From Tetrahymena thermophila SB210 (Eukaryota > Ciliophora > Oligohymenophorea > Hymenostomatida > Tetrahymenidae), in NCBI RefSeq assembly GCF_000189635.1, contig NW_002476413.1, positions 744,001-808,000 of the forward strand: 64,000 nt of DNA, written 5' to 3'. The notes beneath the pieces were generated by a model. The model was not told where the DNA came from. It saw only the letters and a list, made by a program, of their open reading frames with translations, and did not search any database. Below are positions 5,117-64,000 of the stretch, in pieces. Position 1 is the stretch's first letter; each line of letters starts with the position of its first letter. The translations under genes were made by a program, and so were the position numbers.

Positions 5117-8100
5117 ATGAAGTTTTTAATAATAAGACTAGTGATTACTGTATCCTTACCAATCATAACAGGGGTTGCTTTAGTTCTAGTGATCTTCTAT
5201 TAAAATCTTATGAATGCTCTTAATTAATGGTAACGCAAATAATATATAATTTGCTTTCTATTTTTCATCTATCAACCTTTTAAACAATCTACAATTATTT
5301 AATTTGAAAAAATCATCTCTGATTGTACAACACATTTGGATTTTTTTTTTTTTGAAATTAAATTCGTATACTAATAGGGAAAAAGATAGCTATACATGGG
5401 TTAGCTAAACATAAAGATAAATACTTTATAATTCCTTACTCTCCTAACAAATGATGTATGAGTATAGTTTCAATTAAGTAGGAGTTTTTTTATAAATTAA
5501 TCAGTCTGACTACGAAGAAAAAAAATGTAATAAAACTGTTTTTTTATCAAATAAAAGATGCAAATTCACTTGATATTAATGAATAAACTGATAGATAAGT
5601 ATAACAATCAACAAATATTAGGTTTGATTTAATTTATATTTTGATTTTATTTTATAAATCTTTGCTATATTAAACTAGTTAACAAGAAGTCCTAATTTAC
5701 AATGTGCTCTTACAGAGAGCTAACTTATCAATAATGTCCTCCTAATGTTTACACATAGATGTCTAAAAGTTTGCTTTACGTTGATTTGTACTTTGTTAGA
5801 TCAGTCTTTAAGTTTAATCTTTTGACTCCCTCACAGTAAGATTTCATCTTAATGGTATAAATTTTATTTTTGATTATTTTTTAAATCGTAATTTCAATTT
5901 CTATAACAAAAAGAATGATTTTCTATCTTTTTATGCTAGAACGGTATACCTCAATTCATAAAAATAAGATTTGTTGTTAATAACAAGTATATATAATTCT
6001 GATACAACTTCATTGCTAACCAATATCCCTTCAAAGTAAATAAATTTACTATTTAGCTCAAAAAAGTTGTTCTTATCAATCATACTCTCTACTTATTTAT
6101 TTTAATTTTGTGATTAGACTAATTAATATTGCAGAGGTTAATATCAATTTATAATTTTAAAAAGCTATTTCAACATATCTAAATCAAATTATGAGAACTG
6201 CTTAGGGAATAATTTCACTGAGCCATTTGATCCCAGGTGCAGATAGTGGTATATTTTTTCAAAATAGAATAAAGGTATATTTATTTTTAGTGTTTATTTT
6301 ATCATTAAAAAATTATAGATAAATATTTAAATAAATAAAAGGTTATTTTTTTTATGAGCCTTATTCTGACGCGTTTGAAGGGACTTTAACAATGACTCTC
6401 TCGAGTTAGATAAATAAAAATGGATAATTTTAATCAGTCAATAGTATAGATTTTAATATGAAAATGATAATAGATTATATTAGTAGATTTAAAAGTGATA
6501 ACCAATACTCAGTTTTATTTCATGAATTTAATAACACAGTAAATAAATAAAATGAATACCATTTTTATCTATTAAGGTCAATTTTTTTTAACTTAAAAAT
6601 AGTTGTTCTATCACCATGAACTTACAAATAATTAAATTATGTCATGGGAAGATTTAGAGTTTCAAAATATTACAAATGGAGGAAGTTTGAATCAATAATA
6701 AATAGATAAGTTGAAGAAGGAGAAATAAAAATTTAATTATTAATTGCAAAAAACTTTAGATTTTATAAATACAGGAAATTATTCTATGTTTGAGCAATTC
6801 AATATTGATTATTTGTATTAAAAGTGGAAAAAACTTGAAGTTAAATAGTAAATATTATCTATCTTTCTTTCATAATTTTAAAATAATAAATATTCTTAAT
6901 AAGTATAAGCATGGTATGTCCTATTAAGAGCAAAATTGAAAAATATAAAACTTAGGAACCATATTCTCATTCGATTATTCTCGCTGCTAAAGTAATTTAA
7001 GATTAAAGCGATCTTCTCAAATTATTCAACATTATGAATATAAATTCAATTAAAATTCCTTTAATTATAGAATCTGCTATTGTGTGTTTAGCAGTTTTCT
7101 TATTTATTGCTAATTATGGATATTTTTAATTACTGCAAGTATAGAGACCGATTGAAATATTGATTAAATTTTTGAAAAAAAGCCTTTAATAATAGCATCA
7201 GTGTTAAGTATAAATTTACACTAAAAAAGATGAGAAGGTGGTTAATCTTTCTAATATCTAAAAAATGATATTCAGAAAAAGAAATACCACAACCAATTTG
7301 ACAAATAATTTTAGTAAATTTAAAAATGAAGATTAAGTAAATACTTTACTTTCACCAGTTCATAATGAAACTCCTTCATAAACGACATTTAATAATTTAT
7401 AATTTGTCAATCAATGGAATTAGCTTGATAGAAGACTAGAGTAAAACAAAACAATTCAGCTATTTTCAAAAGTTAATCTGAATAGTAAAGCTAATCTAGA
7501 AGATCATACTCAAGTAGAATATCTTGATAGCTGCATTTTAAAAAATAAGAAATAGAGACATTATTCCCAACAAAACTTTAAATCAAATTAAACTTCATTT
7601 AAAAACTCTACCCAACAACTCTTTAACTATGATCTAAACAATTAAGGTAACAATTCTTAAAAAAATTATTCCTCATTTAGGAGTTTTAAAAACTCACCAG
7701 AGTCTAATTTGAGTAACAGATTCTCATCTTTGAGTTAAATAACTTAAGAATAAAAAAATAAAGATGAAAACAAAGAAAAAATACTCTAAGGTTTGAAACC
7801 TTTATTTCTAGAAATGCAGATAATTAAAGAAGCTTTCTAAAATTTAGAGAGATTAATAAATTATAAGATTGATGCCAGCAATCCAAATTAGCAGGATAAA
7901 ATGAATACTTTATATCACTTTGCAAAGGCTAAAAATACATTTTAAATGCTGAATAATTAGAATGGATTGAGTCGCTGCTATTTCAATTTAGGAGTAATTT
8001 ATATTTTGAGAAACGAGTTTAGTTTAGCTTCTCAATATTTAGAATCGTCAGTTTGGTTAACTATGGCTTTGATTGGTATTGACTCTTTGTATAAAATTAA

Positions 8101-9619
8101 AGATAAATATGCTTTGTAACACGATACAGAATAGGAGGAATGGCTTTTAATATTTAGCAAAAGAATATTTTCTCTTGCTTACAGCTAAAAGCAAGCTGCA
8201 TTTTAAATTATTTACTAAGAGAAAGAAGATTATTTAATTTAAAATTCTTCTTTGAAAAGTTTTTAGCACAAGCTTATTCCTCCTGATTAAATGCAACAAA
8301 TTAAGTCTTTGTTAAAAAAATCTTTAGATTATTTTAATGCCATTTAAAATTTATTTAATAATAGAAGTCAAAGTATCTCAGAGATATTTTAAATTTACAT
8401 TTACCAAGAAATTACAGAAATTTTAATTCATTTAGACCACAAAAACTACTGCAAATAAATAAAAAATTATACTAATAAAATTGTTCAATTACTAAGCAAG
8501 ATTAATCGCTAGAAATTTAAAATTAACTAAAGACCCATAAGCTTAAATGATTACAAACTTAGTGAGGAAAGTCATCATATTATCCAAGAGGAAGATATAG
8601 AATATTTAAGCAACTCAAATACGAATTAAAATGATACACAAATATTTAACTAAGAAATAATAAATAAAATGATAGATGTAATTAATAATAGACAAAAAGT
8701 TATTCTAGGATATTTAGAACTCGTTCAGGAGAATCATTTCATAGCAATCGAATATCTTACTTAGAGCCTAGAAGAAGGGAAATTTTACAGCCCTCTCCTA
8801 AGAAAAAAAACAATATTTTATCTAAATCAACTATTTGAAGAAGTATCTTTTAAATAGGATTTCATTGATGAACTAATTCTTAATCTAGATGATTCAGTGA
8901 AAATAGATCTTACCTTGCTTCTTTAGATGAGTTCTTTCTAATATAATTTTATCTTTGACAACTGCTTATAAAACTTTGTTAAATAGAATTTTTTTAGGCC
9001 ATAAGACAGGATATAAGTGATAATATTTAATGAAAATCTAGAAGAATTCCTTCCATTAACAATAATTTAAAGTTAGCATCATTTGGCCTCAATAATTAAT
9101 TCCATTTAAAGTTATAAAAAATAATCTATTCAAAATTATATGAAAAATGCTTCCTCATAATTAAATTGGTAATCTGCCCTTATACAATCGCTTGAAAATA
9201 TATAGTAATTTAGTTATTAACAAATTATTGATTTAAATAACGCAAAACAAAAAATAGAGTTTTAATAAAATTCAAATATTAGTTAAATTAAATTATAATA
9301 ATTTTAAGAAGAGCTTAGGATTAAAAGATAAAATACACATTAATAGAATAAAAAAGTAATAATCCTATTCTCTAAAAAGTAGAATGCCAAACAAAAATTA
9401 GTAACAAAAAAAAACATATTCTAAATATAAAAACCTATTGTCTATCATATGATAGATAAGTTTTGTCTTGATGAAGATGATTATAAAATGTAATCTAGTT
9501 TATTCTCTTACGAACCTTTCATTAGCGAAAATGAATTGATGATCAGATTAAAAAAGTTAAGAGAAGAAGAAGTAACTATATACCAAAAAGAATTCCTTTC
9601 CATCCTTAACCATTTTTGA
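5117..9619 (+). CDS. Array gene 1 (subfamily A): Cache-TM-TPR-vWA-like receptor, 1280 aa
   Basis: Nine exons: 5117-5229, 5378-5477, 5558-5621, 5679-5854, 5914-6035, 6165-6274, 6342-6538, 6603-6847, 6904-9619. All introns are GT-AG, and the joined frame is 1281 codons ending in TGA. Residues 4-28 form an uncleaved signal-anchor helix. Residues 38-425 are extracellular and resemble a Cache sensor, with FDPRCRQWY at 213-221, cysteines at 102, 112, 204 and 217, and an N-glycosylation site (NIS) at 195-197. Residues 427-447 are the second membrane helix, followed by a helix with invariant Pro-Ile (RPIEILIKFLKKSL). A Q/N/S-rich linker runs to about 665. TPR-like repeats lie near 733-768 and 975-1010. 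From about 1042 to the end is a von Willebrand A-like fold: DLTLLL strand, DRIQVIIFN strand, LNWQSAL helix and KVIILFS strand (about 1193-1199). The first metal-ligand Asp is Gln. The likely role is a plasma-membrane sensory receptor; ligand and partner are unknown. Confidence 0.85.
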
Positions 9620-11529: not shown

Positions 11530-14500
11530 ATGAAACTTTTAATTGTAAGACTAGTTATTACAGTTTCTTTGCCTATCTTAGTTGGAGTTGCACTAGTCTT
11601 AATTGTCTTCTACTCAAATCTTATGGATGCTCTTTATAGATGGTATACCAATTAATAGATACCATTTTTACATCTTTAAATTATTATCTGCATGTTCATA
11701 TATCGCTTACTTTTTTTGATTTATCATCATAATAATTTCAAAGATAATTCAATTATTTTTGTAATAAAATCTAGGGAATAGGATAGTGCTTCTTGGATAA
11801 ACTAGACACAATAGCAAATACTTTATAATTCCTTATTTTCTTAGCAAATTATTTCATAGTATAGCTTCAATTAAGTACCATTTTAGATTATTTAGTCCAT
11901 ATTATTGAGAAAATATTTAGCGCAATTCAAATAATGATGAATATGAAAATATTATTTTGATTAATAAAAGATGTAAATTCATTTGATGCTTATGAATAGT
12001 TTAATATCTAAGTATAACAATGGATAAATTAAAGGTAATTTAAACTTTTTTTTGTTATACATTTACATGAATATTATTTTTTTATCTAATTTAGTTAACT
12101 AAACAACTTAGTCTGCAAAATGCTCATTAAGGGAACTAATATTTAATGAGTGCCCTTACTATATTTATACATTATTATCTAAAAATGAATTATATGTAGA
12201 TTTATATTTCGTCAGATCTGTGTTTAAATTTGAGCTTTTAACTATTGAGCAATAGAATTTCATTCTTATGGTATGTTTAAGCTTACACTTTTAAAATATT
12301 TTCTTTACTTATCATTCTAATATATAGAATAACATTCTTTCATTTTATTCCAGAGCTTCTTATCTAGCTACTTAAAAAGAAGGATTATTAGTCATCAAAA
12401 GTTTTTATAATTCAGACACAACTTCAGTACTCTCTGCTGTTCCTTCTAGGTAAATTATTATTGATGTTATAATTCAAATTTAATTAATTTTTTTTACTTA
12501 CATATTTTAAATAGCTATAAAAACGTTACTAATTCTTAGTTCGAGTATTGTTTAGGTAGTAATTTTATAGAGCCTTTTGATCCCAGATGCAGACCTTGGT
12601 ATTTATTTTCACAATAGCATAAAGGTAATAAATATTATTCCAAATAAAATGAATTAATTAAGTTAAAAAAATAGGTTACTTTTTTTATGAACCTTACAGA
12701 GATGCTGTTTTAGGAAATCTAATCATGACCCTTTCTAGCTAAGTTAGCAAAAACGGTTAATTTTAATCTGTAAATAGCATAGATTTCGATATGATTGAAA
12801 TTACGAAATAATCTAACACTTCTTAAATGGCAAATCAATACTCAGTTTTATTCCATGAATTTAATAATATAGTAAAATTAATGATTAAAAATAAATTAAA
12901 TGAGCAATTATTATTTAATATAGGTGTTCTCACATCCTTTACTTTCAGACTAATCGTTGATATCATGGCAAGATTTAGAATTTCTTTATATCTTAGACAA
13001 TAAACTCATGAATTAGTTTGAATATGATCAAGTTTAAGAAGAAAAAAACATTTTTACTTCACAACTCTTAAATAGCATAGAATTTATAAAGCAAGGAAAC
13101 TACTCGATTTAATAGTAGATTAACCTTGATAAACTATTACAATAGTGGTCGAAACTTGGCGTTAAATAGTAAATCAAACTTTTTTTATTAATTTAATTGA
13201 AATTTAATCACGCAAATTAATTTATTAAAAGTCTAAGTTTAGTTTTTCCTATAAAGAATCCAAATATTTAATTCCAAAATCAAGAACCTTATTCAAATTC
13301 AATTATACTTCTAGCAAGAGTAATAGTAGATGAAAGCGATGATCTTAAGCTGTTTAATTTACTGAATATCAACTATATTAAGGTACCTTTGATTATAGAA
13401 TTCGTATTAGTGTGCTTAGCTGTATTTATCTTTATTGGGAATTATGGATATTTTTAAATATAATAAGTGTAAAAACCTATAGAAATCCTAATATAATTTC
13501 TGAAAAAAAGTCTTTAGTAATAGCACCAGTGCTAAATATAATTTTATACAAAGAGAGAGGATAAATAAACCATTCTCTAAAGATTTCAACCAACAAAAAA
13601 AAACTTGTAATAAAATTGCTGTAAAAAACAAATTAAATTAAAAAATGAAGATCAAACAAATACACTATTCTCACCTTCACATGTAGAAACTCCAATTTAA
13701 ACAACTTATAATAATTTAAATAACTTGATTGGCAATGATAAAAATATCGATTAACAAAAAACGATGCTAATATTTTCAAAAAATAATCTTTTGAGCAGGA
13801 ATAATGTCGAAGAGCCAAATATAATTGATCAATTAGACAGTTTTGCTGCAAAAACTAAAAGATAGAGGTACTATTCCCAGTAAAATCCTCGATTAAATTC
13901 GACAAAAAACTCCAATTAATTTTTTCAAAACTTTGAATCTAATACTGAATTTACTAATTTACCAAGAGTAAATACAGTAAAAAGTATTAGGAATAATTAT
14001 CCAGAATCTTAGGTTAGTATCAGAAACACTTCATAAAGTTAGACTTCTTAAGACAGAAAGAAGGAAGTTGATAAAGATAAAATACTCTAAGGTCTAAAGC
14101 CTTTATTTTTAGAGATGAAAATTATCAAATAGGCATTTCAAAATTTGGAACGGTTAATCAATTATTAGATAGACTCAAATACACATAATTCATAAGATAA
14201 CATGAATACCTTATATCATTTCGCTAAAGCTAAGAGCACATTTTAAAGACTGTTAAACGAGAATGGTTTAAGTCGTTGTTATTTTAATTTAGGTATTATT
14301 TACCTTTTGAAAAATGAATATAGCATTGCCTCTTAGTACTTTGAATCTTCAGTTTAATTAAATTTAGCTTTACTTGGGATAGACTCCTTGAAATAAATAA
14401 ACGAAAATTGCATGTTAAACTGTGAGGGAGATTAGGATAACTGGCTTCTCATTTTTAGCAAGAGAATTTTCGCTTTTGCTTATAGTTAAAAGTAAATAGC

Positions 14501-15926
14501 TTTTGATATATCATACAACAAATTAGAAAAAAACATTAATAAAAACTCTTCAAAAGAAAATATTGCATAGAAAAACGAGGATATTCATATAGATTAAATT
14601 TAGAAAATAAGATCAAACTTAAGAAAGGCTTTAGATATTTTTAAAGTTGTATAAAATCTATTTACTTATAAGATTAAATGCTATTCAGATTTTTTTCAAG
14701 CATTCGTATATTAAGAAATCATAGAAATTTTAATTTATTTAGATCAATCATTCTATAGCAAGTAAATTTCAACTTATTTAGACAAAACTAGATTTCTACT
14801 GGATAAAATTTAAATCTGTAAATCGAGAAATAACCAGAATGTATTTACCCTAAATGAATACAAACTAAGTGAAGATACTTAACACATGATTATAGAAGAT
14901 GATTTAGAGTATTTGAGCAATTAAAACATAAATTGTAATTCATCTTCCAAATACAAATAAGAAATAAAATATATAATGATAGATATTATGAAAAGTAGGT
15001 AGTTGTTTCTTTTGGGATATCTTGCACTTGGTAAATAAGAGCACTAATAAGCATTAGAATATTTTTCGCAGAGCTTGGAAGAAGGAAAGTTCTACAGTCC
15101 TTACCTAAGAAAAAAAACTGTATTAAATCTAATCAAATTATTTGAGAAATTATCTTTTAAACAAGATTTTATTGATGAATAAATTCTAAATTTTTAAATT
15201 TCTACAAGCATTGATCTTACACTCTTACTTTAAATAGATTCAATTTAGAATAATTTTGTATTTGATTATTGCTTGGAATCTATTATGAAATATAAACTTC
15301 TTTAACCTGGAGACAGATTAAAAGTTATAATTTTTAATGAAAGTCTTGATGAATATATTCCACTTACCCTAATATAAAGTGGCCATCACATTAATTTAAT
15401 ATTAAGCACATTACAAACTTAAGCAAAAAAATTATTTTAAAATACTACTAAAAATAGTTCTAACTAGCTAAGCTGGTAATCAGCGCTCTTTTAATCTCTT
15501 GAAAATATCTAAGAACTTAATCAAAAATAAGTAATAGACCTTAGTTCAACATGCTAAAAAATAAAAAAAGAATTTAGTTAAAATAGTAGCTATGAAAAAT
15601 TAAAAAAAATATAATAAGAAATAAAATAAAAATAATAATGCATAGCTAAGCAAAATAAAAAAGTAATCATTTTATTCTCCAATTAATCAGGTGCTAAATA
15701 GCCATTCAAAGTTGATAAAAATATTTTCTAACTTTAGAAACCGACAGTATTGCATTTAATTGATTAATTTACATTAGATATCTAAGATTACTAAATACAG
15801 TCTGAATTATTCTTTTATGAACCTTTGATAGATGAAACTTAGTTAATCTTTAGTTTAAAAAAAGTAAGAGGAGAAGAAAATAATAGCCAATAAAAGGAAT
15901 TTTTTACTGTATTAAATCATTTTTGA
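11530..15926 (+). CDS. Array gene 2 (subfamily A): Cache-TM-TPR-vWA-like receptor, 1273 aa
   Basis: Exons 11530-11642, 11775-11874, 11971-12034, 12095-12270, 12328-12449, 12515-12624, 12675-12871, 12924-13168 and 13232-15926 join into 1274 codons; I read the last exon through without an in-frame TGA. It is the closest relative of gene 1. Exons 1-8 have identical lengths, and both proteins end in NHF. The sensor motif is FDPRCRPWY (213-221), preceded by an NVT glycosylation site. The membrane helix IIEFVLVCLAVFIFIGNYG (about 430-448) is followed by KPIEILIQFLKKSL. The linker shares a short NTLFSP...ETP stretch with gene 1 and B genes. The first TPR-like repeat has RCYFNLGIIYLLKNEYSIAS. The vWA-like strand LTLLLQIDSIQ again has Gln in place of the first metal Asp. 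The 5' start is fixed by the conserved MKxLIxRLxITVS anchor. Confidence 0.85.
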
Positions 15927-15997
15927 TAATTTCAATTTTCATATTAATTAACATCTTTATATTATAAAATTTTTAATTGTATATTATTTATTTATTT

Positions 15998-17427: not shown

Positions 17428-20400
17428 ATGAAGGGGCTTATTATTAGACTTATTTTGACAGTATCAATACCAATCATAATAGGTGTAGCAATATCTATGA
17501 TAATATTCTACAAAAATCTTATGAACGCTCTTTTATCATGGTTTTTATTAGAAATTATTTAAAATAAATATTATTTTATCATCTTTTGGTATAATGTTTT
17601 TTTTTTTTTATAAAATAAATAAGGGAATCGGATAGTCTCTAATGGATTAAGTAATAGTATTAATAAACGCTTTATAACTAACTACTCTCTCAGTTAATCA
17701 TAGAAGAATACAGTTTTAATTAAGTATTTGCTTTCTAGAATTTTTGTTACTTTTAAAAAAATCATTCATTATCAAATATTGATGGTATATTTTTTTATAA
17801 TTTAAATAGATTCAGCTTTAGTTAATTGTGTTGAATAAATTGATTGATAAATACAATGATAAAAAAATATTAGGTATTTATTTTATTTCCCTTATCTAGC
17901 TTAATCTTTATTTAATGTTAAAAAAATATATGTTAATTATTAAAAGTCAATTCAAAAACTCAGTTTACAATTTGTTCATACAGAGAATTAGTTTTCAATT
18001 AATGTTCTCCTGATGTTTATGTGAAGTTCCAATAAAGCCCTTATTTTGTAGATGTATATTTTGTGAGATCAATCTTCAAATTTGATCTTCTTTCTAAGCA
18101 GTAGCAAGATTTTATCTTAATGGTATTTTTTTAATCTGTTTTATTTATTTTAAAGTAGATTTTTTTTAAAAAAAAGAATAATCTTCTGTCTTTTTACTCT
18201 AGGAGTGTAGCTTATCAATCTTAGCAATAGGGAATATTAAAAATAATTATGTTTTTCAACTCAGATGCCACGTCTATATATACAAGACATCCATCAGAGT
18301 ACTTTTTTTACTTTCTTACTTATAAATTTTCATTTTTAATAAATTTTTAAGGTATACAAATGTTACAAATACACCTTACTTACATTGTTATGGTGATGGG
18401 TTTTTAGAACCATATGATCCAAGATGTAGACCATGGTATATTTATGCAAAGGAACACGAAGGTAAAAAAAAGTATTTTTAAAAAATAAGTTATTCTTTTT
18501 ATTTATAAATTTAAATCAATCAATCACTTATTTAACATATTAAACTAATAAAATAAGGTTATTTCTTTTATGAACCTTATAAAGGCTAAATCCTATAGAG
18601 TTTATAGATGACTTTATCTAGTTAGGTGAAGATTGGTTAGAATTTTTAATCCATAAATAGCATATCATTTGATATGAGTAATCTTATTTAGATTTTTTTC
18701 AGCTCAAAAAATTAATATGCTGTTTTATTTCATGAATTCAATAATACTGTAATTTATTTATTGTCTTTCTTTTTCAGTTAAATTATTATTAATTATTATT
18801 TATTTGTTTATTTTTTTCTATAATTCTTAAGCAATTTTTAGATCATAAAATAAAAACTATTTATTTAAAAAAACAAATAGATTTTTTATCACCCTTAGTT
18901 TGATGGCATCAGCGTTATATCATGGTAAGAATTAGAATTCAAAAATATATCGTAAAACTGTATAACATAAATTGATTTAGAAAAGTGTAATTAAGAAAAA
19001 GAATAATTAAACTATTAACTGCAATAGACAATACAGTTTATCAAAACTGGGGATTATTCCATCAATTAATAAAAAAATTTAGATTAGCTATATTAATATT
19101 GGTCAAAATTTGGAGTCAAAAAGTAAATAATATTTCATACGAAACAAGTCTAAATTTCCATTTAATTTTCTTTTCATATTTATAGAATTAGCTTGGTCTT
19201 TCCATTAGTGAGTAAAATTTCTAAGTATAAAACTCAGTAGCCTTACTCTTTCTCTATTATATTGACAGCTATGGTTATTGACGATTAAAGCGAAAGATTG
19301 TAATTATTTAACATCATTAACATTAATTGGATTAAAGTACCTCTAATAATAGAATTCATTATAATTAGCTTGATGATAATTATTTTTTTACTAAACTATG
19401 GCAAATTTTAAATTATTTAAATTTAAAATCCTATAAATATTTTAATTAAATTCTTAAAAATAAATCTAATTTTGCAATCTTAAACATAATATACAAATAA
19501 GTTAGATAAATAAAACTTTTTGTCTTAAAACTCAAGCAAATACAAAAAATCACCTTAAAATACAAATTATAAAGTAAAATACAATGAAATTACAAATAGT
19601 TTATTTTCTCCCTTCAATTAAGTTTATTTAAAGGAAACATTGAAAAACAATGTAAAGGTTAATGAAAATCACTTAATAAACAAAGAAAAAACTTCTAGAG
19701 AAAATACATGGAATTAATCTTATTTAGATAAGGTAAATTTCTCTTATAAATTAGATAGTTTTTTGGAAAAAAGCAGAAATAGATTAACTTATTAATAAAA
19801 TTCTAAGACCATATAAAGTCAACCTTAATCATCTTATTTATAGGTTGATACAAATAATGGAAATCAAGTCGCTTTTGGCTAAAAATATAACAACAAAACT
19901 ATTTAAAATGATGACAAATATTATTAGAACAGAAATAATAAAAGCGAAGTATTTAACACATAAGAATAAAAGTAAGAATAAGAATAAGAATAAAAAAGTA
20001 AAATACTAGATGGGTTAGAGCCATTGTTCTTAGAAATGGCAATCATCAAAGAAACTTTTTAGAATTTAGAAAGCATGATAAATTATTAGATTGATGCTTA
20101 AAGTTAGAGCTCTGAAGATATCATGAACGGTTTGTTCCATTTTGCTAAAGCTAAAGGTACATTTCAAAAGTTATAGAATTAAAATGGTGTTATCCATTGT
20201 TATTATAATCTTGGTGTCGTTTACTTAATTAAAAATGATTTTTAATTAGCTTCAGAATATTTTTTATCATCAATTTAACTAAACAGTATGCTTCTTGACA
20301 TTGATCATTAATAAATATAATTATAAAAATATGCATTTGCCTAGTATAAATAAGATGACGATCAGCTAGCCTTATTAATAAAAAAAATTTTATGCTTTGC

Positions 20401-21823
20401 ATATAGCCTGAAACAACTTGCTATAGAATAAATATATGATTAAATTAAATCTAATTTATCTAAGTCATCAAACAGCTTTTACTATGAACTCAAATATCAC
20501 CAATAAAAAAGCTTAGATTAATAAATATTGTAAAATATTTTAAAAAAATCAATTGATAACTTCAGAATTTTAGAAAATTTTATTAAAATTTATAATTAAA
20601 ATGTTTCAAAATTATTCTAACTATTTGTTTATTTAGAAATAATAGAAATATTAATTCATTTAGATCTCATGAAATAAATAAAACAAATTTAGTTTTACAT
20701 TGATAAAACAATAATTTTAATCTAAAAATAAGAGCCTTAATATATGAATTCCAAACTTTTATTAGAAAATTCAAATGGAAAAAAAATAAATGAGTTTGAG
20801 AGCTTTTAACTTGAGTAAGACATCCCTTTTAGTTTTTCAAGTAAAAATGAAAACCTTACATAAGAAATCAGGTTTATGATTTTTGAAATTTTTAAAGCTA
20901 AGTTAATGTTTTTATAAGGAAAATTGGAGTTCTATTAAGAGAATTACTGTCTAGCTATAGAATACTTTACACAGAGTATAGAAGAAGGATAATATTTCAG
21001 TCATGTTTAAAGATAAAATTCTATCCTTTATCTTTCTCTAATATTTTAAAAGTTATCAATAAAATAAGATTTTATTGATGAGTTTATTTTGAACTCCTCT
21101 GTACAAATCGAACTTACTTTACTTATTTAGATGGATTTCTTTAGTTAAAATACAAATCTTAGCTAATTTTTTGAAAATATTTAATAATCAAAATTATTAA
21201 GAAAAAAAGATGGAATTTAAATAATAATTTTTAACAAAAAGCTGTAAACTGTTATTCCACTTACTCTGATAGAAAGCTTTCACCACCTTAAATTAATCAT
21301 TGAAAGTTTCAAAAACAGAGCAAAATAAACAATTCAAAGTCCTAAGAAAATTGTTTAAAAATTAAATTGGTAGCAAGCTTTAATATAATGTATTGGTAAT
21401 ATAACTAATTTAAATCTTCTCTAAATTAACAAACTCAAATAGGATATAAAAGAATGGAAAAATAGTAATAATGATTTATAAAAAAAATCTAATTATGAAA
21501 TATTAAAACATAATATGAAAATGTTGGAAAATAAAAAATAAGTAATTATTTTATTTTCTTATTCATAAGATATTAAAAACAACATCATAGCAAAATAATT
21601 CTTTGATAAAAAAATTCAATTCCATTCCTAAAAAATCATAATTTATCACATGATAGATTAATTTATTCTATATAGTGATCAATAATATCAATATGTATCA
21701 GAGTCCTTCTAATACCAGCCAGTAGTACTTGATAAAGATCTTATCTAAAAACTAGGTTAACTTAGAACAGATTAACTAAATACTTCTAAATAATTTATAA
21801 CCATCCTAAATAACGCTTTATGA
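17428..21823 (+). CDS. Array gene 3 (subfamily B): Cache-TM-TPR-vWA-like receptor, 1251 aa
   Basis: Exons 17428-17540, 17624-17723, 17810-17873, 17947-18122, 18177-18298, 18352-18461, 18558-18748, 18881-19122 and 19186-21823 give 1252 codons. As in all B genes, exon 7 is two codons and exon 8 one codon shorter than in subfamily A, so the second membrane helix sits near 424-444. The sensor motif is YDPRCRPWY, preceded by NVT. The linker includes SLFSPFNQ, a YLDKVNFSYKLDS stretch shared among B genes, and a (GAATAA)n run at about 19965-19997 that is read as Gln-Glu repeats. A TPR-like segment HCYYNLGVVYLIKNDFQLAS and the vWA-like strand LTLLIQMDFF follow. The protein ends in ILNNAL. It is nearly the same as gene 4, pointing to a recent duplication. 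Confidence 0.85.
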
Positions 21824-44639: not shown

Positions 44640-47600
44640 ATGAAATGGTTAATAATTAGATTGATTATCACAGTCTCTATTCCGATTATTGTTGGAGTAG
44701 CTATTGTTTTGTTGATATTTTATAAGAGTTTGTGGAATGCCCTCTACTAATGGTAAAGAATAGTAACCTTAATATTTACATTTTTTTTCAAAGTAGAATT
44801 AAATACTATTTTGAGCAAATTTCTCAATAATTGCTTGTAGATAATCATTTTACAAATAATAATTAGGGAAGATGAAAGCTTGAAATGGATAAATTAAAAT
44901 TAATAATAGATTTTACATAACTCTGCCTATTCTCAATAGCTAATTGAAACTTATAGCTTCAATTAAGTAATCATTATATAATCTTGCTATTATAATAATC
45001 TTATTAGTTCTAGATATTTACCAATTCCTATCTTATTTTATTTATAAAGCTACAACTGCATTTAGTAGTTATCAACAGTATCATTTTAAAATATTATGGG
45101 TCTGAATTAAAAAGTATTTAAACATTTAGGCTTTCACTTTTCATTATTGAGGCATTTCTTTTTATAATATTAGTAAATCCAAACGCAAAGTTTCTTAAAT
45201 GTTCGTATAGAGAATTAATATTTGATGAGTGTCCATAAGATGTTTACACAAAGCTCAACTAAAGTATCTTTTATGTGGATTTATACTACATAAGAGAAGG
45301 ATTTAACTTTAATAAACTGACTACCCTTTAATAAGAATTTATAGTTATGGTAATCATTTAATTTATTCACAATAACTCATAAAAATTCTATAAAATATAT
45401 TGAAGAACGAGTTTATTTCATATTATGGAAGAGCTGCTATAATAGCTTCTATTTCTGAAGAACGTTTGAAAATATAGACTCTCTACAACGCGGATACAAC
45501 ATCAATTATGGCTCATTAACCATCAAGGTAGAATCTATTATTTAACTCAAAAAATAAATAAATAATTGAAATTAATTAGGTATTAAAATTTTACAGCTTC
45601 AACCTATCAGACTTGCTTAGGTACTGATTTTATTGAACCTTACGATCCAAGATGTAGATCATGGTACAAGTATGCTAAATAGCATGAAGGTATATATTAT
45701 TTAATTAAAATATTATATTTTAAATGTTATTATTAAATTAGGATATTTTTTTTATGAGCCTTACTTGGATGCTATAGAGGGAAACTTAGAAATGACTCTT
45801 TCATCACAAATTAAATATAATTCAGAATTTACTTCTGTTAGTAGTATAGATTATGAAATGAATTCTATGATTGATTTATTTAAAAATACTCAAAGCTAAA
45901 ATGCATACTCTGTCCTTTTTCATGAATTCAACAATACAGTATTTATCTATTTTATTCATTCATTCATTCATTCATTCATTCATTCATTCTTTAATTTAAC
46001 AATTAACTCTCGAAGTTAAAAATAGTCAATGTCTTTTATTTTTTTTTGTGATTAATAGATTAAGGAATTTAATTGAAATTATGAAAACTTTTTTAATTAA
46101 GGATGTTTTGAAATTAAAAAGTGAATTCTAGTTTGAATTTACTGCGTTAAATAGAATTTTTTAGCCATTGGTTTAAATTAAACCCTAATAAAAAATTTTA
46201 ACAATATAGGAGGTGTATTTAAATATTATTAATCTTTAGGGTAAATTAATTTTTTTAATTAGTAAAAATTGACTATTCACTTTAGTTTTATTTACCAAAA
46301 AAACAATTCTATTTTACTATAAAAATAATTTTTCTTTCATTTCCTTTTTAAAAATTTTAACTATTGAGATTTCAATTAGAGCTTTTATAGAAAAATTAAA
46401 TTTATTTTAATCAATTAACTATTCTAATTTTAATAAATTCAAAATTTCAGCTTTATATTTGAATGATAACTTTTTTAATTTATGATTTAAATTTAATTAG
46501 ATATTTTATCATCCTTTACTTAATGCATCAGATGTAATATCGTGGGGAGACTTAGAGTTTTAGAATATAACTGATAATTGCAATGAGGCTTAAGCTTTAG
46601 AAGCTTGTATGATAGAAAAATAGGAGTTTGTTTAATAATTAAATAGTACAGTCAATTTTATACAAACATCAAATTATTCTATTTAGTAACAGATTAATAC
46701 AGATGGTTTATATCAATATTGGTCAAGATATGGAGTTGATTTGTAATTTATTTTTCGCTTTTTGATATACATACTTAAAGCTTTATTTTTATTTTGAATT
46801 AAAAGAATTAGCTTAGTATATCCTATAAGGAGTTAAATAACTAAATATCCTACATAATAACCTTATTCATTCTCTATCATTCTTACTGCTAGAGTATTAG
46901 TTGATCAAAGTAGTTCATTGAAGCTATTTAATCTTTTAAATGCAAATTCAATTAAGATTCCTCTTTTAATTGAGTTTATTGTATTGAGTGGATTAATTGT
47001 TGTTTTTCTTGTAAACTATGGGCATTTTTAAATTTACTAAATTTAATACCCAATCGAGTTGTTAATAATATTTTTGTAAAAAAGTTTAATGGAATAACAA
47101 TAATTCTAAAATCCCATTAATTTTAAAAGTGAAGGAAATGAAAAAGAAAAATCTAATAATTAAATTAATAAATATTTAAATACTGGTAATTCACCGAATT
47201 TAAATAAAAGCCAAAGTAAAATTAATAGCAGTTAAGTTAAAAGCTAGATAGCACTTTAAGATTAATCAATAATAAATATTAGTTTCTTTTAAAATAAAAC
47301 AAAATAACTTTTTAGTTTTTAATAATATGACAAGTCAACTGCATAATTAGATTAATCTAACTTAAGGGAAAAGACTTAAAATTAAGATGAGATTCTAGAA
47401 ATTTCAAGTAGAATATTCTAAAATTAAAAGAGAGATTTTTTAAATGAGAGTAAAATAATGACAAAATAAGCTAATAATAATAATAATAATAACAGTATTA
47501 AAAAAAACAATAATTCAAATAGAATACCCTTAGAAAATTCTTCTAATAAATCTTAAAATAGATTAATCAACTAATCAGTAACGGATTCTTATCTTATCTA

Positions 47601-49437
47601 ACGATCAACAAATATCACTAGAGTAACGAATGATTTCGATATCTTATCTGATATAGAATAAATTGAAGAAAAAGAAAATGGATAATCTAAAATCCTTTCT
47701 GGATTAAAACCTCTCTTCCTTGAAATGAAAATTATCAAAAAGACATTTTAAATGCTTGAAGGGGTAATCAATTACTAGATTTAAGCATATTCTAATGATT
47801 AATAGGATGCAATTTAAACTCTTTTCCATTTTTCTAAGGCTAAAAGTACATTTTAAAATCTTCAAAATTAAACAGGACTAAGTCGATGCTACTTTAATTT
47901 AGGCATCATTTATCTTTTGAAAAATGAATATGAATAATCATGTGAATATTTTGAGGCATCAATCATGCAAAGCCTATAATTCATAGGATTAGAGTCTTTG
48001 GATTAGATTAACGAAAATATGTTTATAAATATTTAAAATGATTAAAAAGATTAGCTATTTATATTCTGTAAAAGAATACTGTCATTTGCTCATTCAATAA
48101 AATAATATTCAATATAATTAGCATAAAATTAAAATAAAGCACAATCAAAAGAAGAATTTTTGGTTTCAGATACATTCTATTTAAACTCTTCAATCAAATA
48201 TTTAATGTAAAAGTCGATAGGAATATTAAAAACAGTTCAAAAAATAATCTACCACAATTATTAAAAAACCCCTTTCTAAGATATTTTTTTAATTTTTTTG
48301 TATTAAGAAATGATTGAAATATATATATATCTTAAAAAAACAAATGAAATTGATCAATATTTTGAAAAATCAAATGCTTTACTAGATACATATTTACATA
48401 ATTTAAATGTTAACAATAGTTTCAATAGTTATGTTAAAGATAAGAAATGTATTGAATAATAAAAAACAAAAAATATAATTATCGAATTACTAAAAACAAA
48501 ATAAAAGTTTTTATCAGGCATTATTGAAAAATAAAATAAAAATTATAAATAGGCTATTGAATATTTCACTTAAAGTCTAGAATATGGAACACATTTTAAT
48601 CCTTAGTTGAGATAATAAGTTATTGTAAACTTAAAATACTTATTTAATAAGCTTTGTATTTAATAAAACGTTATTGATGAGCAATTTGATAAGTTTGATT
48701 GTGATACTCCAATAGATTTGGTATATGTAATTCAATTAAACTCAATATCTTCATATATTATAGCTGAGTCTTGCCTCCAAAATATTAGAAAATCTAACTT
48801 TTTAAAAAAAAATGATAGAATTTAAATTATCATCTTTAATTAAGAGCTTGATGTTTTATTGCCCTACACAAGGATAATTAGTGATAATTATTGGTAAATA
48901 ATTATGCGTTCAATAAAGAAAATTGGACTAAATACAATTTAAAGATAAAAGTTTAGCTTAAAAAGATTAGATTGGATCTAAGCAATAAACCAAACTTTAG
49001 ATCATATTTACGAACTCAAAGAATTAGATTTAGTTAAACTAAATCAAATTTATAAATTAAATAGTAAATATCACAAAAATCTATGTCCTGAATAATTATA
49101 AAACCATTTAAAGATAAGTCAGTAAAATGATTTAAATTTAAGAAAAAAAGTAATAATTTTATAATCTGCATATTAATAAGCTTAAAATGATCTAATAGTT
49201 AAAAAAAGTTTCATTAATCTATAAAAAAATTTAAAATTAGAAAAACCAATCATCCTTCACTTAAAAGACTACCAATCAATTATTGATCGTAATTAATAAC
49301 AATAACTATAATCAAATTTTATTGAATATGAGGCATTCTATGAAGAAAATAAGTTAATCACAAAATTAAAAAAGCTTAGAGACTAAGAAATTCTCAATCC
49401 AGAATATGAATTTATGGTCATCTTAAATAATTATTGA
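44640..49437 (+). CDS. Array gene 8 (subfamily C): Cache-TM-TPR-vWA-like receptor, 1251 aa
   Basis: Exons 44640-44752, 44867-44966, 45050-45113, 45174-45349, 45406-45527, 45580-45689, 45742-45938, 46501-46742 and 46806-49437 give 1252 codons. The protein begins MKWLIIRLIITVS. The sensor motif is YDPRCRSWY with NFT upstream and the four family cysteines. The second membrane helix is near 426-446 (LIEFIVLSGLIVVFLVNYG), followed by YPIELLIIFLQKSL. The linker differs completely from A and B genes; it is Asn/Gln/Ser-rich with a run of seven Asn at about 47473-47493. TPR-like RCYFNLGIIYLLKNEYEQS and YKQAIEYFTQSLEYG are recognisable. The vWA-like strands are IDLVYVIQLNSIS, DRIQIIIFNQ and KKVIILQSA. 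C proteins end in ILNNY. Intron 7 is 562 bases and carries an (ATTC)9 repeat. Confidence 0.85.
45954..45989. repeat. (ATTC)9 microsatellite in intron 7 of gene 8
   Basis: Nine uninterrupted ATTC units lie just after the intron 7 donor of gene 8. Gene 9 has only about two units at the equivalent place (near 52434), and gene 10 has ATTT-type units. It should vary between strains. Confidence 0.9.
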
Positions 49438-53878: not shown

Positions 53879-53916
<38 letters not shown>

Positions 53917-57497: not shown

Positions 57498-60400
57498 ATG
57501 AAGTAGCTAATAATTAGATTAATTATCACAGTCTCGATTCCAATTATTGTTGGAGTTGCACTTGTTTTGCTGCTTTTTTATAAGAGTTTATGGAATGCCC
57601 TCTACTAATGGTAATCAATTGTGATTTTGAGATTTAAATATTCAAAGTAGAATTAACTAAAATTTTTAACAAACTGCGCAATCATCACTCAGAGATAATC
57701 AATTTACTAATAATAATAATTAGGGAAGATGAAAGCTTAAAGTGGATAAATTAAACTTAATAATAGATTTTGCATAACTCTGCCTATGCTTAACGTTTAA
57801 TAGAGACTTACAGCTTCGATTAAGTAATCATAATAAAATCTTTTTATTATAATCATCATATTATTTTTATATTTTAAAAAATTCCAATCATATTTTATCT
57901 ATAAAGCTGCAACTGCATTTAATAGTTATCAACAGTATGATTTAAAAATATTATGGATCTGAATTAAAAAGTAATTAATATCTTAGGTTGTGGTCATTTA
58001 TCATAACGGCATTTTTTTTTTATAAAATTAGAAAATCCAAAAGCAAGCTTTCTTAAATGTTCCAATAAAGAATTTTCAAATAATGAGTGTCCTTAAGATG
58101 CTTATACAAAGCTCAACCAAAGTACCTATTATCTAGATTTATACTTTGTAAGAGAAAGATTTAGCTTTAATAAACTCACTGCTCAATAATAAGAATTTAT
58201 TGTTATGGTAATCACAAAATTATTTTTTTCACAATTACTCATAAAAATTCTATAATATATATTCAAGAACGAGTTTATTTCATATTATGGAAAAGCTGCT
58301 ATAATAGCTTCTAATTCAGGAGAATTTTTGAAAATATAGACTATTTACAACGCAGATACTACATCACTTATGACTTACTAGCCACCTAGGTAGAAGCTAT
58401 TATTTAACTCAAAATTTAAATAAATAATTTAAATTAAATAGGGATTTAGATTTTAAAGATGCAACCTATTAGACATGCTTAGGTACTAATTATACTGAAC
58501 CCTATGATCCAAGATGTAGATAATGGTACTAGTATATTTAATAGCATGAAGGTACATATATATTACTTAATTAAAAAATAACATCTTAAAATATTATTAT
58601 TGAATTAGGATATTTTTTTTATGAGCCTTACATGGATGCTATAAATGGAAACTTAGAAATGACTATTTCGTCACAAATTAGTTAGAATTCTGAATTTGTA
58701 TCAGTTAGCAGTATAGATTATCAAATGAATTCTATAATTGATTTATTTAAAATTTCTCTAAACTAAAATGCATACTCTGTACTTTTTCATGAGTTCAACA
58801 ATACAGTATTTATTTATTTATTTATTTTATTTATTCTTAGTTTTATACATATAGCAAACAATTTTAAAACCAAATATAATCACTTTCATATAAATTACCT
58901 TAGTCATTAATTTAATAGCTCTTAATTGAAATAATTAAAATTTGTTTAATTAAAGATGCTTTTAAATAAATAAAATAATTTCATTTTGATATTTAAGTTT
59001 AAACAGTTTGTTTTAGGGGTTTTTTTAATATATAAATTAATTTTTAAGGTAAATTAATTTTTTTAATAATATCAAAGAATTTTAATTTTTTGAAAAATTT
59101 GAAAGGGAAGCCTCCCTTTTCAAATTAGCTTCTTAATTTTTATTTTTAATCTATCAAAAAAAAAGCCAAGCTCCCTTTTTTCTTTTTTTGATTAATAGAA
59201 CAATTCCAGAATATTTTTTAATCAATAAGTGATTTTAATTTAAAATTCTTTAAGCATTAAAAGGCTGGACCTGTAAAAAATGCGAGGGATTTAAGTATAA
59301 ACTCAAAACTTTATTTTTATTAACGAAATACAGCTTTTTAAATTTTTTATGATTTAATTTCAATTAGATATTTTCTCATCCTTTACTTGATGCATCAGAT
59401 ATAACATCATGGGGAGACTTAGAGTTTAAGAATTTGACTGAAAATTGTTAAGGAGCTTAAGCTTTATCAGATTGTTTGATAGAAAAATAGAATTTTGTTT
59501 AATAATTAAATAATACAGTGAATTTTATACAAACATAAAATTATTCTATTGATTAGCAGATTAATACAGATGGTTTATATCAATATTGGTCAAGATATGG
59601 AGTTGATTTGTAATTTGTTTTTCACTTTGTTATAATTAATCTTTATTTTATTTTGATTTAAAAGAATTAGTTTAGTATATCCTGTAAGGAGTTAAATAAC
59701 TAAATATCCTACATAATAACCTTATTCATTCTCTATCGTTCTTACTGCTAGAGTATTAGTTGATGAAAGTAGTTCATTGAAGTTATTTAATGTTTTAAAT
59801 ACAAATTTAATTAAGATTCCTCTTTTAATTGAGTTTTTTGTATTGAGTGGAATAATTGTCGTTTTTATAGTAAACTATGGGAATTTTTAAATTTACTAAA
59901 TTTAATACCCAATTGAGTTGCTCATCATATTTTTGTAAAAAAGTTTAAAGGAATAACAATAATTCTAAAATCCAAATAATTTTAAAAGTGAAGGAAATTA
60001 AAAAGAAAAAAATAATAACTAAATTACTAAATATTTAAATACAATTAATTCACCTAAGTTAAATAAGAGCCTAAGCAAAGTAAATAGCAGTTACTACAAA
60101 AGTAAGATACCACTTTAAGATTAATCAATATAAAATAGTAGCTTGTAAAATTTAAAACCAAAATAGATTTTTATTTTTTAGCAAAATGATAAGTAAACAG
60201 TATAATAAGATTAAAATAAATTAAGGGAAATAAATTTAAATTAAGATGAAATCTAAGAAACTTCAAGTAGACTATTCCAAAGTTAATTTAAGCGAGACTT
60301 CTTAAATGATAGTAATATAATGATAAAATAATCAAATTAAATCAACCATGATAGTAGTATTAAAAAATACAATAATTTAAAAAGATTGCTCAAAGAAAAT

Positions 60401-62314
60401 TCTTCTGATATGTCTTAAAAGAAGTTAAACAACTATAGCTATTCCGTAACGGACTTTTAATGTATCGAAGAATCAAAAAATACCACTATAATGAATAATG
60501 ACTTCGATTAATTATCATAAATAGAATAAATCGAAGAAAAAGAAAAAGGATAATCTAAAGTCCTTTCTGGATTGAAACCACTCTTCCATGAAATGAAAAT
60601 TATCAAAAAAACGTTTTAAATGCTTGAAAAGGTAATAAACTACTAGATTCAAGCATATTCTAATGATTAATAGGATGTAATGTAAACTCTTTTCCATTTT
60701 TCTAAGGCTAAAAGTACTTTTTAAAATCTTCAAAATTAAACAGGTCTAAGTCGATGCTACTTTAATTTGGGCATCATTTATCTTTTGAAAAATGAATATG
60801 AATAATCATGTGAGTATTTTGAGGCATCAATCATGCAAAGCCTATAATTCATAGGATTAGAATCTTTAGATTAGATTAACGAAAATACATTCATAAATAT
60901 TGATAATGATTAAAAAGATTAGCTATTTATATTTTGTAAGAGAATACTCTCATTTGCTCATTCAATAAAATAATATTCTTTATAATTAGCATAAAATTAA
61001 AATAAAGCATAATCATAAGAATAATTGTTGGTTTCAGATACATTTTATTTAGACTCTTCAATAAAATACTTAATGCAAAAGTCAATAGGAATATTAATGA
61101 TCGTGCAAAAAATTATCTATCATAATTATAAAAAAAAACCTTTCTAAGATATTTTTTTAATTTTTTTGTATTAAGAAATGATTGAAATATTTATATATCT
61201 TAAAAAAACAAATGAAATTGATCTGTATTTCGAAAAATCAAATGCTTAACTAGATATATATTTATACAATTTAGAATGTAGCAATATTTTTGATTCTCAT
61301 GTTAAAGATAAGAAATATTTTGAATAATAAAAAACAAAAAATATAATTATTGAATTACTTAAAACAAAATAAAAATTTTTATCAGGCATTATTGAAAAAT
61401 AAAATAAAAACTATCAATAGGCTATTGAGTATTTCACTTAAAGTTTAGAATATGGAACACATTTTAATCCTTAGCTGAGATAATAAACTATTGTAAACTT
61501 AAATTACTTATTTAGTAAGCTTTGTATTTAGTAAAACGTTATAGGCGAGTAATTAGATAAGTTTGATTGTAACACTCCTATAGATTTGGTATATGTAATT
61601 CAATTAGACTCAATATCTTCATATATTATAGCTGAGTCTTGCCTCGAGAATATTAGAAAATCTAAATTTTTTTAAAAAAATGATAGAATTTAAATTATAA
61701 TTTTTAATTAAGAGCTTGATGTTTTATTGCCTTATACAAGGATAACTAGTGATCATAACTGGTAACTATTGATAAGTTCAATAAAGAAAATTGGAATTAA
61801 TACAATTTAAAGTTAACAATCTGACTTAAAAAAATTAGATTGGATCTAAGCAATCAACAAAACTTTAGATCACGTTTATGAATTCAAAGAATTTGATTTA
61901 GTTTAACTAAATCAAATTTATAAATTAAATAGTAAATATCATAAAAATAATAAAAATCAATGCCCCGAATAATTACAAAAGCATTTAAAGATAATTCAGT
62001 AAAATGATTTAAATTTAAGAAAAAAAGTAATAATTTTATAATCTACATATTAATAAACTTAAAATGATATAAATATTAAATAAAGTTTCATTAATCGATA
62101 AAAAATTTTAAAATTAGAAAAGCCTATCATTCTTCATTTAAAAGACTAACAATCAATTATAAATAATAATTAATAATCATAAATATAATCGAATTTTATA
62201 GAATATGAGGTATTATATGAAGAAAATAGGTTAATCATGTAATTGAATAAGCTTAGAGAATAAGAAATTCTTAATCGAGAATATGAGTTTATGGCTATCT
62301 TAAATAATTATTGA
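57498..62314 (+). CDS. Array gene 10 (subfamily C): Cache-TM-TPR-vWA-like receptor, 1257 aa
   Basis: Exons 57498-57610, 57724-57823, 57907-57970, 58032-58207, 58268-58389, 58442-58551, 58609-58805, 59368-59609 and 59665-62314 give 1258 codons. The protein begins MKQLIIRLIITVS, with a TAG codon 3. The sensor motif is YDPRCRQWY. The N-glycosylation site kept in genes 8 and 9 is replaced by DFKD, as also in gene 11. The linker lacks the poly-Asn tract. TPR-like RCYFNLGIIYLLKNEYEQS and the vWA-like strand IDLVYVIQLDSIS follow. Intron 7 (58806-59367) holds two short inverted repeats not seen in gene 8 or 9. The minus-strand frame at 60515-60733 is a shadow of exon 9. Confidence 0.85.
59096..59197. 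repeat. Two adjacent hairpins in intron 7 of gene 10
   Basis: The first hairpin pairs AATTTGAAAGGGA (from about 59096) with TCCCTTTTCAAATT (to about 59126), with one bulged base. The second pairs ATCAAAAAAA (from about 59154) with TTTTTTTGAT (to about 59193) around a GCCAAGCTCCC centre. Both are richer in G+C at their cores than the intron. The same intron in genes 8 and 9 lacks them, which suggests insertion or local rearrangement in gene 10. Confidence 0.7.
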
Positions 62315-62951
62315 ATTAACAAGCACCTAAATCACATATATCTTAAGTAAAATACCTATTAATTTTTGATAGATATTTAATTAAATCATTTTTAATTTAA
62401 TAAAAAAAGATTGAAAACAAACATTTGCTAGTTTTTTAAAAATAGAAATTTTATACAAATTATGAGTTTATTTACAACTATTAATTGAATATTTATTATC
62501 AATGTATAAATTTTTAATGAATTATTTTTAATATTGAAATTAAATTACAATATAAATTTTTGTTTTTTGCTGATTAAATTATCAAAATAATATTTTTTTT
62601 TAATTCTAAAAAATTATCTAAAAACTATTTTTTAAATAAATAATAATTTAATACATACATACAAATTCTATTCCATCTTATATTTTAAAACCTTTTATTG
62701 TTTAAAATTTTTTATTTGTCTTAAGTAAAGATTGCAACTTTGAATTCAAATAAAGATATTATTTACTTTTATGTTTATTGATATTAACAAATAATGATAA
62801 TTTGTAAATATTTGTATATTTAGATGATCAAACATATAAACAAATAATTGATTGAAATTTTTTAAGACAGTACTTTAAACAAATAAATTAACAAACAATT
62901 ACTAAGTTTATTCAAATTGTTATTTTATCATAGTAAAATAAATATATAAAT
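62315..62951. other. Spacer between genes 10 and 11
   Basis: The shortest C-type spacer. It joins a C-type 3' flank directly to an upstream region carrying the conserved block (62698-62790). No relic or other gene was seen. Confidence 0.5.
62698..62790 (+). promoter_or_regulatory. Conserved upstream block, gene 11
   Basis: TTATTTGTCTTAAGTAAAGA, then TTGCAACTTTGAATTCAAAT, about 160-250 bases before the ATG. It closely matches the gene 10 block. Confidence 0.4.
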
Positions 62952-64000
62952 ATGAAGTCGCTAATAATTAGATTAATTATCACAGTCTCGATTCCAATTA
63001 TTGTTGGAGTTGCACTTGTTTTGCTGCTTTTTTATAAGAGTTTATGGAAGGCCCTCTACTAATGGTAATCAATAAGTATTTTAATATTTAAATTTTCAAA
63101 GTAGAATTAACTAAAATTTTGAAAAAAATACTCAATCATCACTCAGAGATAATCAATTTACTAATAATAATTAGGGAAGATGAAAGCTTAAAGTGGATAA
63201 AATAAACTTAATAATAGATTTTACATAATTCTGCCTATGCTTAATGCTTAATAGAGACTTACAGCTTCGATTAAGTAATCATAATATAATCTTATTATTT
63301 TAATCATCAAATTATTTTTTTTTTAACAAATTTCTATCATATTTTATTTATAAAGCTGCAAATGCATTTAATAGTTATCAACAGTATCATTTAAAAATAT
63401 TACGGATCTAAAGTAAAAAGTATTTAATAACCTAGGTTGTGGTTATTTATCATAACGGTATTTCTTTTTATAAAATTAGAAAATCTAAAGGCAAGTTTTC
63501 TTAAATGTTCCAATAAAGAATTATCAATGAATGAGTGTCCTCAAGATGTTTACACAAAACTCAATTAAAGTACCTATTATGTAGATTTATACTTCGTAAG
63601 AGAAATATTTAGCTTTAATAAACTCACTACTCAATAATAAGAATTTATTGTTATGGTAATCACAAAATTATTTATTTCATAATAACTCATAAAAATTCTA
63701 TAAAATATATTCAAGAACGAGTTTATTTCATATTATGGAAAAGCTGCTATAATAGCTTCTAATTCAGGAGAATTTTTGAAAATATAGACTATTTACAACG
63801 CAGATACTACATCACTTATGACTTACTAGCCACCTAGGTAGAAGCTATTATATAACTCAAAATATAAATAAATAATTTAAATTAACTAGGGATTTAGATT
63901 TTAAAGATACAACCTATTAGACATGCTTAGGTACTGACTTTACTGAACCATATGATCCAAGATGTAGATAATGGTACTAGTATGCTTAATAGCATGAAGG
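62952..64000 (+). CDS. Array gene 11 (subfamily C), 5' part of a Cache-type receptor, cut by the window end
   Basis: Exons 1-6 are present: 62952-63064, 63175-63274, 63356-63419, 63480-63655, 63716-63837 and 63890-63999. Base 64000 is the first base of intron 6. Exon lengths are exactly those of the other ten genes. The encoded part is the signal anchor (MKSLIIRLIITVS) and the front of the extracellular sensor, up to and just past YDPRCRQWY. It is very close to gene 10, even in its introns. The remaining extracellular exons and the cytoplasmic exon should lie to the right of this window. Whether the gene is complete cannot be judged here. Confidence 0.83.

Follow-up and report, generated by a model that had tools for sequence, protein, structure and literature searches.

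PctA, which with PctB and PctC belongs to the dCache chemoreceptors of Pseudomonas aeruginosa, carries its Cache ectodomain between two membrane segments, and bacterial Bat-type proteins combine vWA and TPR domains in one protein. Among eukaryotes, alpha2delta and CACHD1 unite Cache and vWA in one membrane protein and contain the pocket motif Y...RxWY ... Y ... D (PMC9901441; this and the other articles given by PMC number are cited from excerpts), and according to the same excerpt it is only from these proteins that the universal amino-acid sensor is known in animals. Here we describe a tandem gene array of the ciliate Tetrahymena thermophila SB210. The window, meaning the whole stretch of 64,000 nucleotides (nt) that was analysed, comprises bases 744001-808000 of contig NW_002476413.1 (C134) in a 101-Mb assembly with 445 contigs. 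The array consists of 15 intact head-to-tail genes, of which ten lie whole in the window, one is cut by its edge and four follow further on. All 15 (1224-1280 amino acids, aa) encode a first transmembrane segment (TM1), a Cache ectodomain, a second segment (TM2), a Gln/Asn-rich linker, TPRs and a vWA-like end. We propose, with a probability of roughly one half, that these are tandemly amplified ciliate surface receptors of amino-acid type which would signal via a docking module.

The array family has the same arrangement of ectodomain and membrane segments as PctA and shares the pocket residues Y121, R126, W128, Y129, Y144 and D173 with PctA, PctB and PctC, but differs from them in its TPR-vWA part, in having no HAMP or MCP domain listed, in its split eukaryotic genes and in its longer ectodomain. 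In alpha2delta the vWA domain is extracellular and lies within the Cache domain, and in alpha2delta-1 and -2 its metal-ion-dependent adhesion site (MIDAS) is intact, whereas in the array family the vWA-like part is C-terminal after TM2, lacks a MIDAS and is accompanied by TPRs. Bat-type proteins, for their part, have no Cache sensor and another order and setting. Cache receptors as such are known; what sets this family apart is its output and its setting within a large eukaryotic array. Among the top-ranked results from the open-licence literature, none describes a ciliate Cache-TPR-vWA family. In the excerpt of a study of ten Tetrahymena genomes, TPR is named as one of the leading domains in species-specific genes, and Cache does not occur (PMC6564038), nor does it in the excerpts of the Ichthyophthirius genome paper (PMC3341644) and of a survey of ciliate G protein-coupled receptors (GPCRs; PMC9960496). 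Other ciliates may well have annotated members. Scans of prokaryote genomes, run with two short peptide patterns each, gave matching stretches (165 for exon 9, 74 for the ectodomain), none of which was confirmed as a relative.

Organization of the array

Read by genetic code table 6 (TAA and TAG as Gln), the window holds ten open reading frames of 839 to 1071 aa along the + strand; table 11 gives no frame reaching 150 aa, and GC content per 2 kb is 17-24%. Units were located by using exon peptides conserved between copies as anchors, by which 11 of the 15 showed all nine exons, exon 8 falling below the score used in copies 1, 2, 14 and 15 (c1, c2, c14, c15). Introns were removed in silico under the ciliate code by an anchored gene finder followed by a boundary rule derived from copy 12. 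The features are as follows, where ligand Asp denotes the counterpart of D173 of PctA.

5117..9619, + strand: copy 1 (c1), 1280 aa; nine exons at 5117-5229, 5378-5477, 5558-5621, 5679-5854, 5914-6035, 6165-6274, 6342-6538, 6603-6847 and 6904-9619
6165..6538, + strand: c1 exons 6 and 7, Cache segment with EPFDPRCRQWY...EPYSD...SID
7778..9616, + strand: c1 exon 9, TPR and vWA-like part
8777..9616, + strand: c1 segment containing the vWA-like domain
11530..15926, + strand: c2, 1273 aa; nine exons; TPR_12 above cut-off
17428..21823, + strand: c3, 1251 aa; Ser in place of ligand Asp
22921..27261, + strand: c4, 1241 aa; Ala in place of ligand Asp
28360..32690, + strand: c5, 1238 aa; Ala in place of ligand Asp
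33215..37783, + strand: c6, 1227 aa; Ala in place of ligand Asp
38471..43520, + strand: c7, 1237 aa; Ala in place of ligand Asp; DARCRPWY
44640..49437, + strand: c8, 1251 aa
51111..55860, + strand: c9, 1253 aa; Cache match above Pfam cut-off; its TPR-vWA part was the query for the first structure model
57498..62314, + strand: c10, 1257 aa
62952..64000, + strand: c11, first six exons in the window; ends at 67719 beyond it; 1257 aa overall
Beyond the window (window numbering): c12-c15, starting at 68484, 73544, 79158 and 84131

The original prediction, made from the letters of this stretch, had counted eleven head-to-tail paralogues; eleven start sites do lie in the window, but the total was a window effect: 15 copies make up the array, and exon 7 occurs at least 44 times in the genome.

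The nine exons measure 113, 100, 64, 176, 122, 110, 191/197, 236-245 and 2557-2716 nt, and both length and phase are conserved across copies. For exons 1, 2, 3, 5 and 6, where the rule leaves no choice, GT/AG was found at 126/126 sites (9 sites in each of the 14 other copies). Exon 4 required a 3-nt shift in seven copies, for exon 7 one of five lengths was selected, and an AG..GT search located exon 8 in copies 1, 2, 14 and 15, so that the overall figure of 240/240 GT/AG splice sites arises partly by construction. The earlier assignment of the predicted extracellular and cytoplasmic parts to one gene holds, with intron phases conserved and Cache exon and exon 9 paired in 43 of 44 loci. Two separate genes for the outer and inner parts are ruled out by the conserved phase of the exon 8-9 junction in 15 copies together with the paired loci. 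The exon 7-8 intron measures 391-838 nt in seven copies (c6-c11 and c13) and 50-132 nt in the remaining eight. In the window the long form occupies 34527-34917, 39771-40608, 45939-46500, 52416-52921 and 58806-59367. The intron can be aligned between c6 and c7 and within c8-c11, and its longest TGA-free stretches span 124-193 codons.

The ectodomain and its pocket motif

Two hydrophobic segments, identified by eye, flank the Cache-type ectodomain of ~390 aa, for which seven spliced ectodomains of the 15 were aligned. PF22673 (MCP-like_PDC_1) matched all seven at E up to 1, with a best E of 3e-6; in c9, the single member with a printed table, the match exceeded the Pfam cut-off (28.0 bits against 27, E 3e-6). 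A profile search against solved structures gave PctA as best match (E 2.5e-7), then PctB (8e-5), PctC (1e-4), further Cache receptors and CACHD1 (0.0019). On these profile matches we consider the Cache assignment firm, and the Cache-like ectodomain first proposed for these genes is borne out. Four cysteines (C102, C112, C204, C217) are invariant in the aligned ectodomains. In the same seven sequences dCache_1 (PF02743) found no match at E<=1 and NCBIfam no family at E<=0.01.

The ectodomain contains the published amino-acid-sensor motif (PMC9901441). For PctA, an excerpt names Y121 and R126 and pairs W128, Y129 and Y144 with residues of amine receptors (PMC10104139); by these residue numbers the spacing in PctA is therefore YxxxxRxWY, as in the array family. 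In the same source the key Asp appears as D173 of 'PctD' (PMC10104139). We take D173 to be a PctA residue, as position 173 of PctA is Asp in the profile alignment. D146 is a further pocket position of PctA. The family consensus has the PctA residue at all seven mapped pocket positions, whereas overall identity is 23 of 68 columns; the probability that seven random columns are all identical (2.5e-4) overstates the case because the PctA match was itself found through these residues. The signature DPRCRxWY, originally described for the eleven paralogues, occurs in 14 of the 15 and not in copy 7, which has DARCRPWY.

These residues are also conserved outside the array. R126 and W128 are kept in 31/31 exon-6 sequences read genome-wide, in which Y121 is Tyr in 26 and Phe in 5 and Y129 is Tyr in 24 and Phe in 7. 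The exon-7 sequences comprise the 15 array copies and 26 of 28 short loci (L073, L074 and the partial C52:4-108 left out) and retain Y144 in 41/41, D146 in 36/41 and D173 in 30/41; L074 has the ligand Asp by eye. Loss of the ligand Asp falls into two groups. In c3-c7 the replacing residue is Ala or Ser, while c12, their nearest relative, still has the Asp; in the five copies on contig C323 and in one on C130 it is Ile or Asn. Copies that lack the Asp have probably moved to other ligands. The constant Arg points to amino acids, because amine receptors retain the Asp but not the Arg in the excerpt available (PMC10104139).

The shared motif also bears on an unlikely alternative, in which the array would encode auxiliary proteins similar to alpha2delta and CACHD1, the Cache domain modulating a partner channel or transporter, amino acids tuning trafficking only and the TPR-vWA tail anchoring the complex. 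CACHD1 is among the solved relatives, alpha2delta-1 shares the pocket motif and has a vWA domain (PMC9901441), and Pfam scans of the array proteins list no catalytic output domain. However, the vWA-like part of the array proteins is C-terminal after TM2 and without a metal site, so that order and predicted side differ, whereas disruption of the MIDAS in alpha2delta-1/-2 prevents channel enhancement (PMC9901441), and ~44 genes would be many for such a role.

The predicted cytoplasmic TPR and vWA-like part

Exon 9 begins upstream of TM2 and runs into a linker with 19-28% Gln and Asn. TPR families were matched in 10/10 exon-9 sequences of the window and TPR_12 in 17/17 members of a wider alignment, both at E up to 0.1; in the printed tables the TPR match is above cut-off in c2, c8 and c9 and below it in c1, c4 and c6. 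No HAMP or MCP signalling domain was listed for exon 9 of the ten copies at E up to 0.1, and no kinase, cyclase or channel domain was listed in the Pfam scans. Both the TPR-like repeats and the missing enzyme or channel had been anticipated, and these scans agree. Compared with solved structures, the exon-9 profile gave weak TPR and unrelated chains only. An AlphaFold model of the TPR-vWA part of c9, built with ten window sequences, has a mean predicted local distance difference test (pLDDT) score of 58; residues 60-320 are helical, most block means lying at 65-90 and some dropping to 43-56, and are followed by a strand, a helix, two strands, helices, a strand, a helix and a strand with block means of ~25-68. 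Foldseek matched this model to the TPR proteins sNASP, SPY and OGT, to the vWA proteins integrin alphaM I-domain, factor B and ITIH1, and also to 14-3-3 and eIF3a chains.

We assign a vWA-like fold to the C-terminal part with moderate confidence, on models and profiles; it had been predicted after about residue 1040, and its first strand in copy 1 lies near residue 1042. A second AlphaFold model, centred on c1 and restricted to the vWA part, is poor and worse than the first (mean pLDDT 44). Such low-confidence models may yield meaningless matches, as the fold tool cautions, and its fold hits serve as support only. Among the 50 hits listed, Plasmodium TRAP ranks first at E 1e-3, 44 are titled as proteins which we take to hold a vWA domain, five are DNA-repair complexes, probably matched through their vWA-bearing subunit p44, and the remaining one is a virus capsid. 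Canonical vWA sequences were taken from the same genome for a profile-profile comparison, 15 being used out of 16 (one had no DxSxS-like frame). The comparison returned E 5.8e-4, a probability of 29% and a score of 31.3, in register over 76 columns, against control scores of at most 16.3 in 20 column shuffles, 10.1 when reversed and 23.2 for the TPR half. The DxSxS motif of the MIDAS is absent, a Gln that is invariant in 17/17 members aligning with the first Asp; the 15 comparison sequences are all DxSGSM, having been selected by a motif filter that favours it. As read from its sequence, the vWA-like domain is divergent and has lost its metal site.

A rather improbable alternative is that the C-terminal domain is an unrelated alpha/beta extension of the TPR array, in which case the cytoplasmic part would be a plain TPR scaffold. 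In its favour, Pfam VWA_2 matches only c1 of the 17 members, below cut-off, profile searches against solved structures list no vWA chain, the hhalign probability is the 29% given above, and both models are of low confidence and fall under the warning about meaningless matches. Against it, 44 of the 50 hits listed for the vWA-only model are titled as vWA proteins, with TRAP first, the larger model matches integrin I-domain and factor B, if beside TPR, 14-3-3 and eIF3a chains, and the profile score exceeds those of the shuffled, reversed and TPR-half controls.

Family expansion and proposed function

With exon 7 of c8 as query, the Cache exon was found in at least 44 places on seven contigs, namely C134 (15), C53 (8), C434 (6), C323 (5), C130 (5), C52 (3, one partial at the contig end) and C94 (2), all genome-search counts being lower bounds. 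The long frame of c4, which consists of exon 9 plus 87 leading codons outside it, matched downstream of the Cache exon in 43 of the 44; at C130:724916 there was no exon-9 match at E 0.001. The match stops before the vWA-like part at C53:86767, C130:747011 and C130:757309 and barely reaches it at C323:24768, and two additional weak matches (C184, C134:3602) cover TPR residues only. In the other loci read, exon order and peptides are similar to those of the array. Other Cache-matching loci, L040-L042 (C9), L043 (C17) and C402:56872, resemble the array family in their Cache profile matches but lie outside the arrays; the PF02743 genome search lists four loci, again none in the arrays. The frame of L041 contains a YERPWY...PYKDA...SID segment, with no TPR-vWA exon seen by eye in the 3.3 kb read. 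The genome thus seems to hold a second Cache family with a similar motif.

Pairwise identity between array copies is 37-93%, and the sequence groups are c1-c2, c3-c7 with c12, c8-c11 with c13, and c14-c15. Copy 12 (68484-72964, window numbering; L033) lies between c11 and c13 yet groups with c3-c7, indicating that the array has been rearranged and not merely extended. The ratio of nonsynonymous (dN) to synonymous (dS) divergence, computed for 11 copy pairs in three protein regions (33 values, one not computable), is 0.08-0.48 in the ectodomain, 0.11-0.42 in TPR-vWA (which includes the value not computable) and 0.18-0.75 in TM2 and linker. The array is under purifying selection and its gene structure is intact. 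A pseudogene array is ruled out by frames closed by a single TGA in 15/15 copies and by dN/dS below 1 in the 32 values that could be computed. In the five closest pairs (c3/c4, c6/c7, c10/c11, c8/c9, c9/c10) dN is higher in the ectodomain than in TPR-vWA (0.044 against 0.007 in c10/c11), in the remaining six it is lower, and in 11/11 it is below that of the linker. It is quite improbable that the array encodes surface proteins of cell-cell or self-recognition (mating, kin, adhesion), its variation serving recognition and not nutrient sensing: tandem paralogy and the five closest pairs, in which the outer part changes first, would fit, but the ectodomain is the more conserved part in the other six pairs and stays below the linker throughout, its dN/dS never exceeds 0.48, and the pocket Arg, Trp and Tyr144 are invariant in the copies read.

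Directly upstream of the array is a 238-aa open frame (431-1144 of the window, - strand) with no Pfam match at E 0.01. Also upstream are a Ras-family GTPase gene (L038, 5676-6571) and, still further, a MutL-like frame recognized by eye. Downstream lie two near-alike frames with Cys-rich segments that resemble zinc fingers by eye (94347-95396 and 98485-99534, window numbering; L036). An Rfam scan of the window gave 0 matches.

For amino-acid-type receptors with a docking output we infer topology, ligand class and mode of signalling as follows. As in PctA and alpha2delta-1, the membrane-distal pocket of the Cache domain would in most members be the binding site for amino acids or their close derivatives, small molecules in which an amino and a carboxyl group are free. 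Binding would shift TM2, and the TPR-vWA module would read this change and dock cytosolic or membrane partners with no catalysis. Many parallel copies would form a ligand-tuned repertoire, like bacterial chemoreceptor paralogues. The original interpretation, with its putative cytoplasmic C-terminus and protein-binding output, is in part supported; it had passed over the amino-acid-binding motif, and with it a specific ligand prediction, as well as the missing metal site of the vWA-like domain. Tetrahymena is confirmed to be attracted by proteose peptone (PMC5497023), whose amino acids have been proposed as attractants (PMC3226668).

Several observations weigh against this proposal. The ligand Asp is lost in 11 of the 41 copies, and DPRxRPWY is common across dCache domains, so that part of the motif match comes with the fold. 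The Pfam match spans the first PDC lobe only, and the ectodomain exceeds the 270-residue chain of PctA. Neither PF22673 nor PF02743 retrieved any array copy in genome searches, perhaps because the motif is split over exons 6 and 7. At TM2, net charge agrees with the predicted topology in c1-c7 and c12 but in no other copy, and the two AlphaFold models are of low confidence (mean pLDDT 58 and 44). Finally, a GPCR route exists, loss of Tetrahymena GPCR6 abolishing attraction to proteose peptone (PMC3226668).

Although chemosensing by ciliates is a classic subject, few of their receptors are known, and the two with knockouts in the papers cited here are both GPCRs (PMC3226668, PMC5497023). With an outer part similar to a bacterial amino-acid sensor and an inner part similar to a platform for protein docking, the array proteins are good candidates for the taste receptors of this ciliate, and the family yields a motif-based prediction that separates copies expected to bind amino acids from those that are not. 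More tentatively, ciliates may have built on the universal amino-acid sensor a chemoreceptor repertoire that exceeds 40 genes, with an enzyme-free output of TPRs and a MIDAS-less vWA domain and with subfamilies of switched ligand class, a possible eukaryotic counterpart of the bacterial MCP and animal taste-receptor repertoires. If the proposal is true, amino-acid sensing by Cache domains would extend to a large protist receptor family, in which protein docking would be the only visible output of the receptor.

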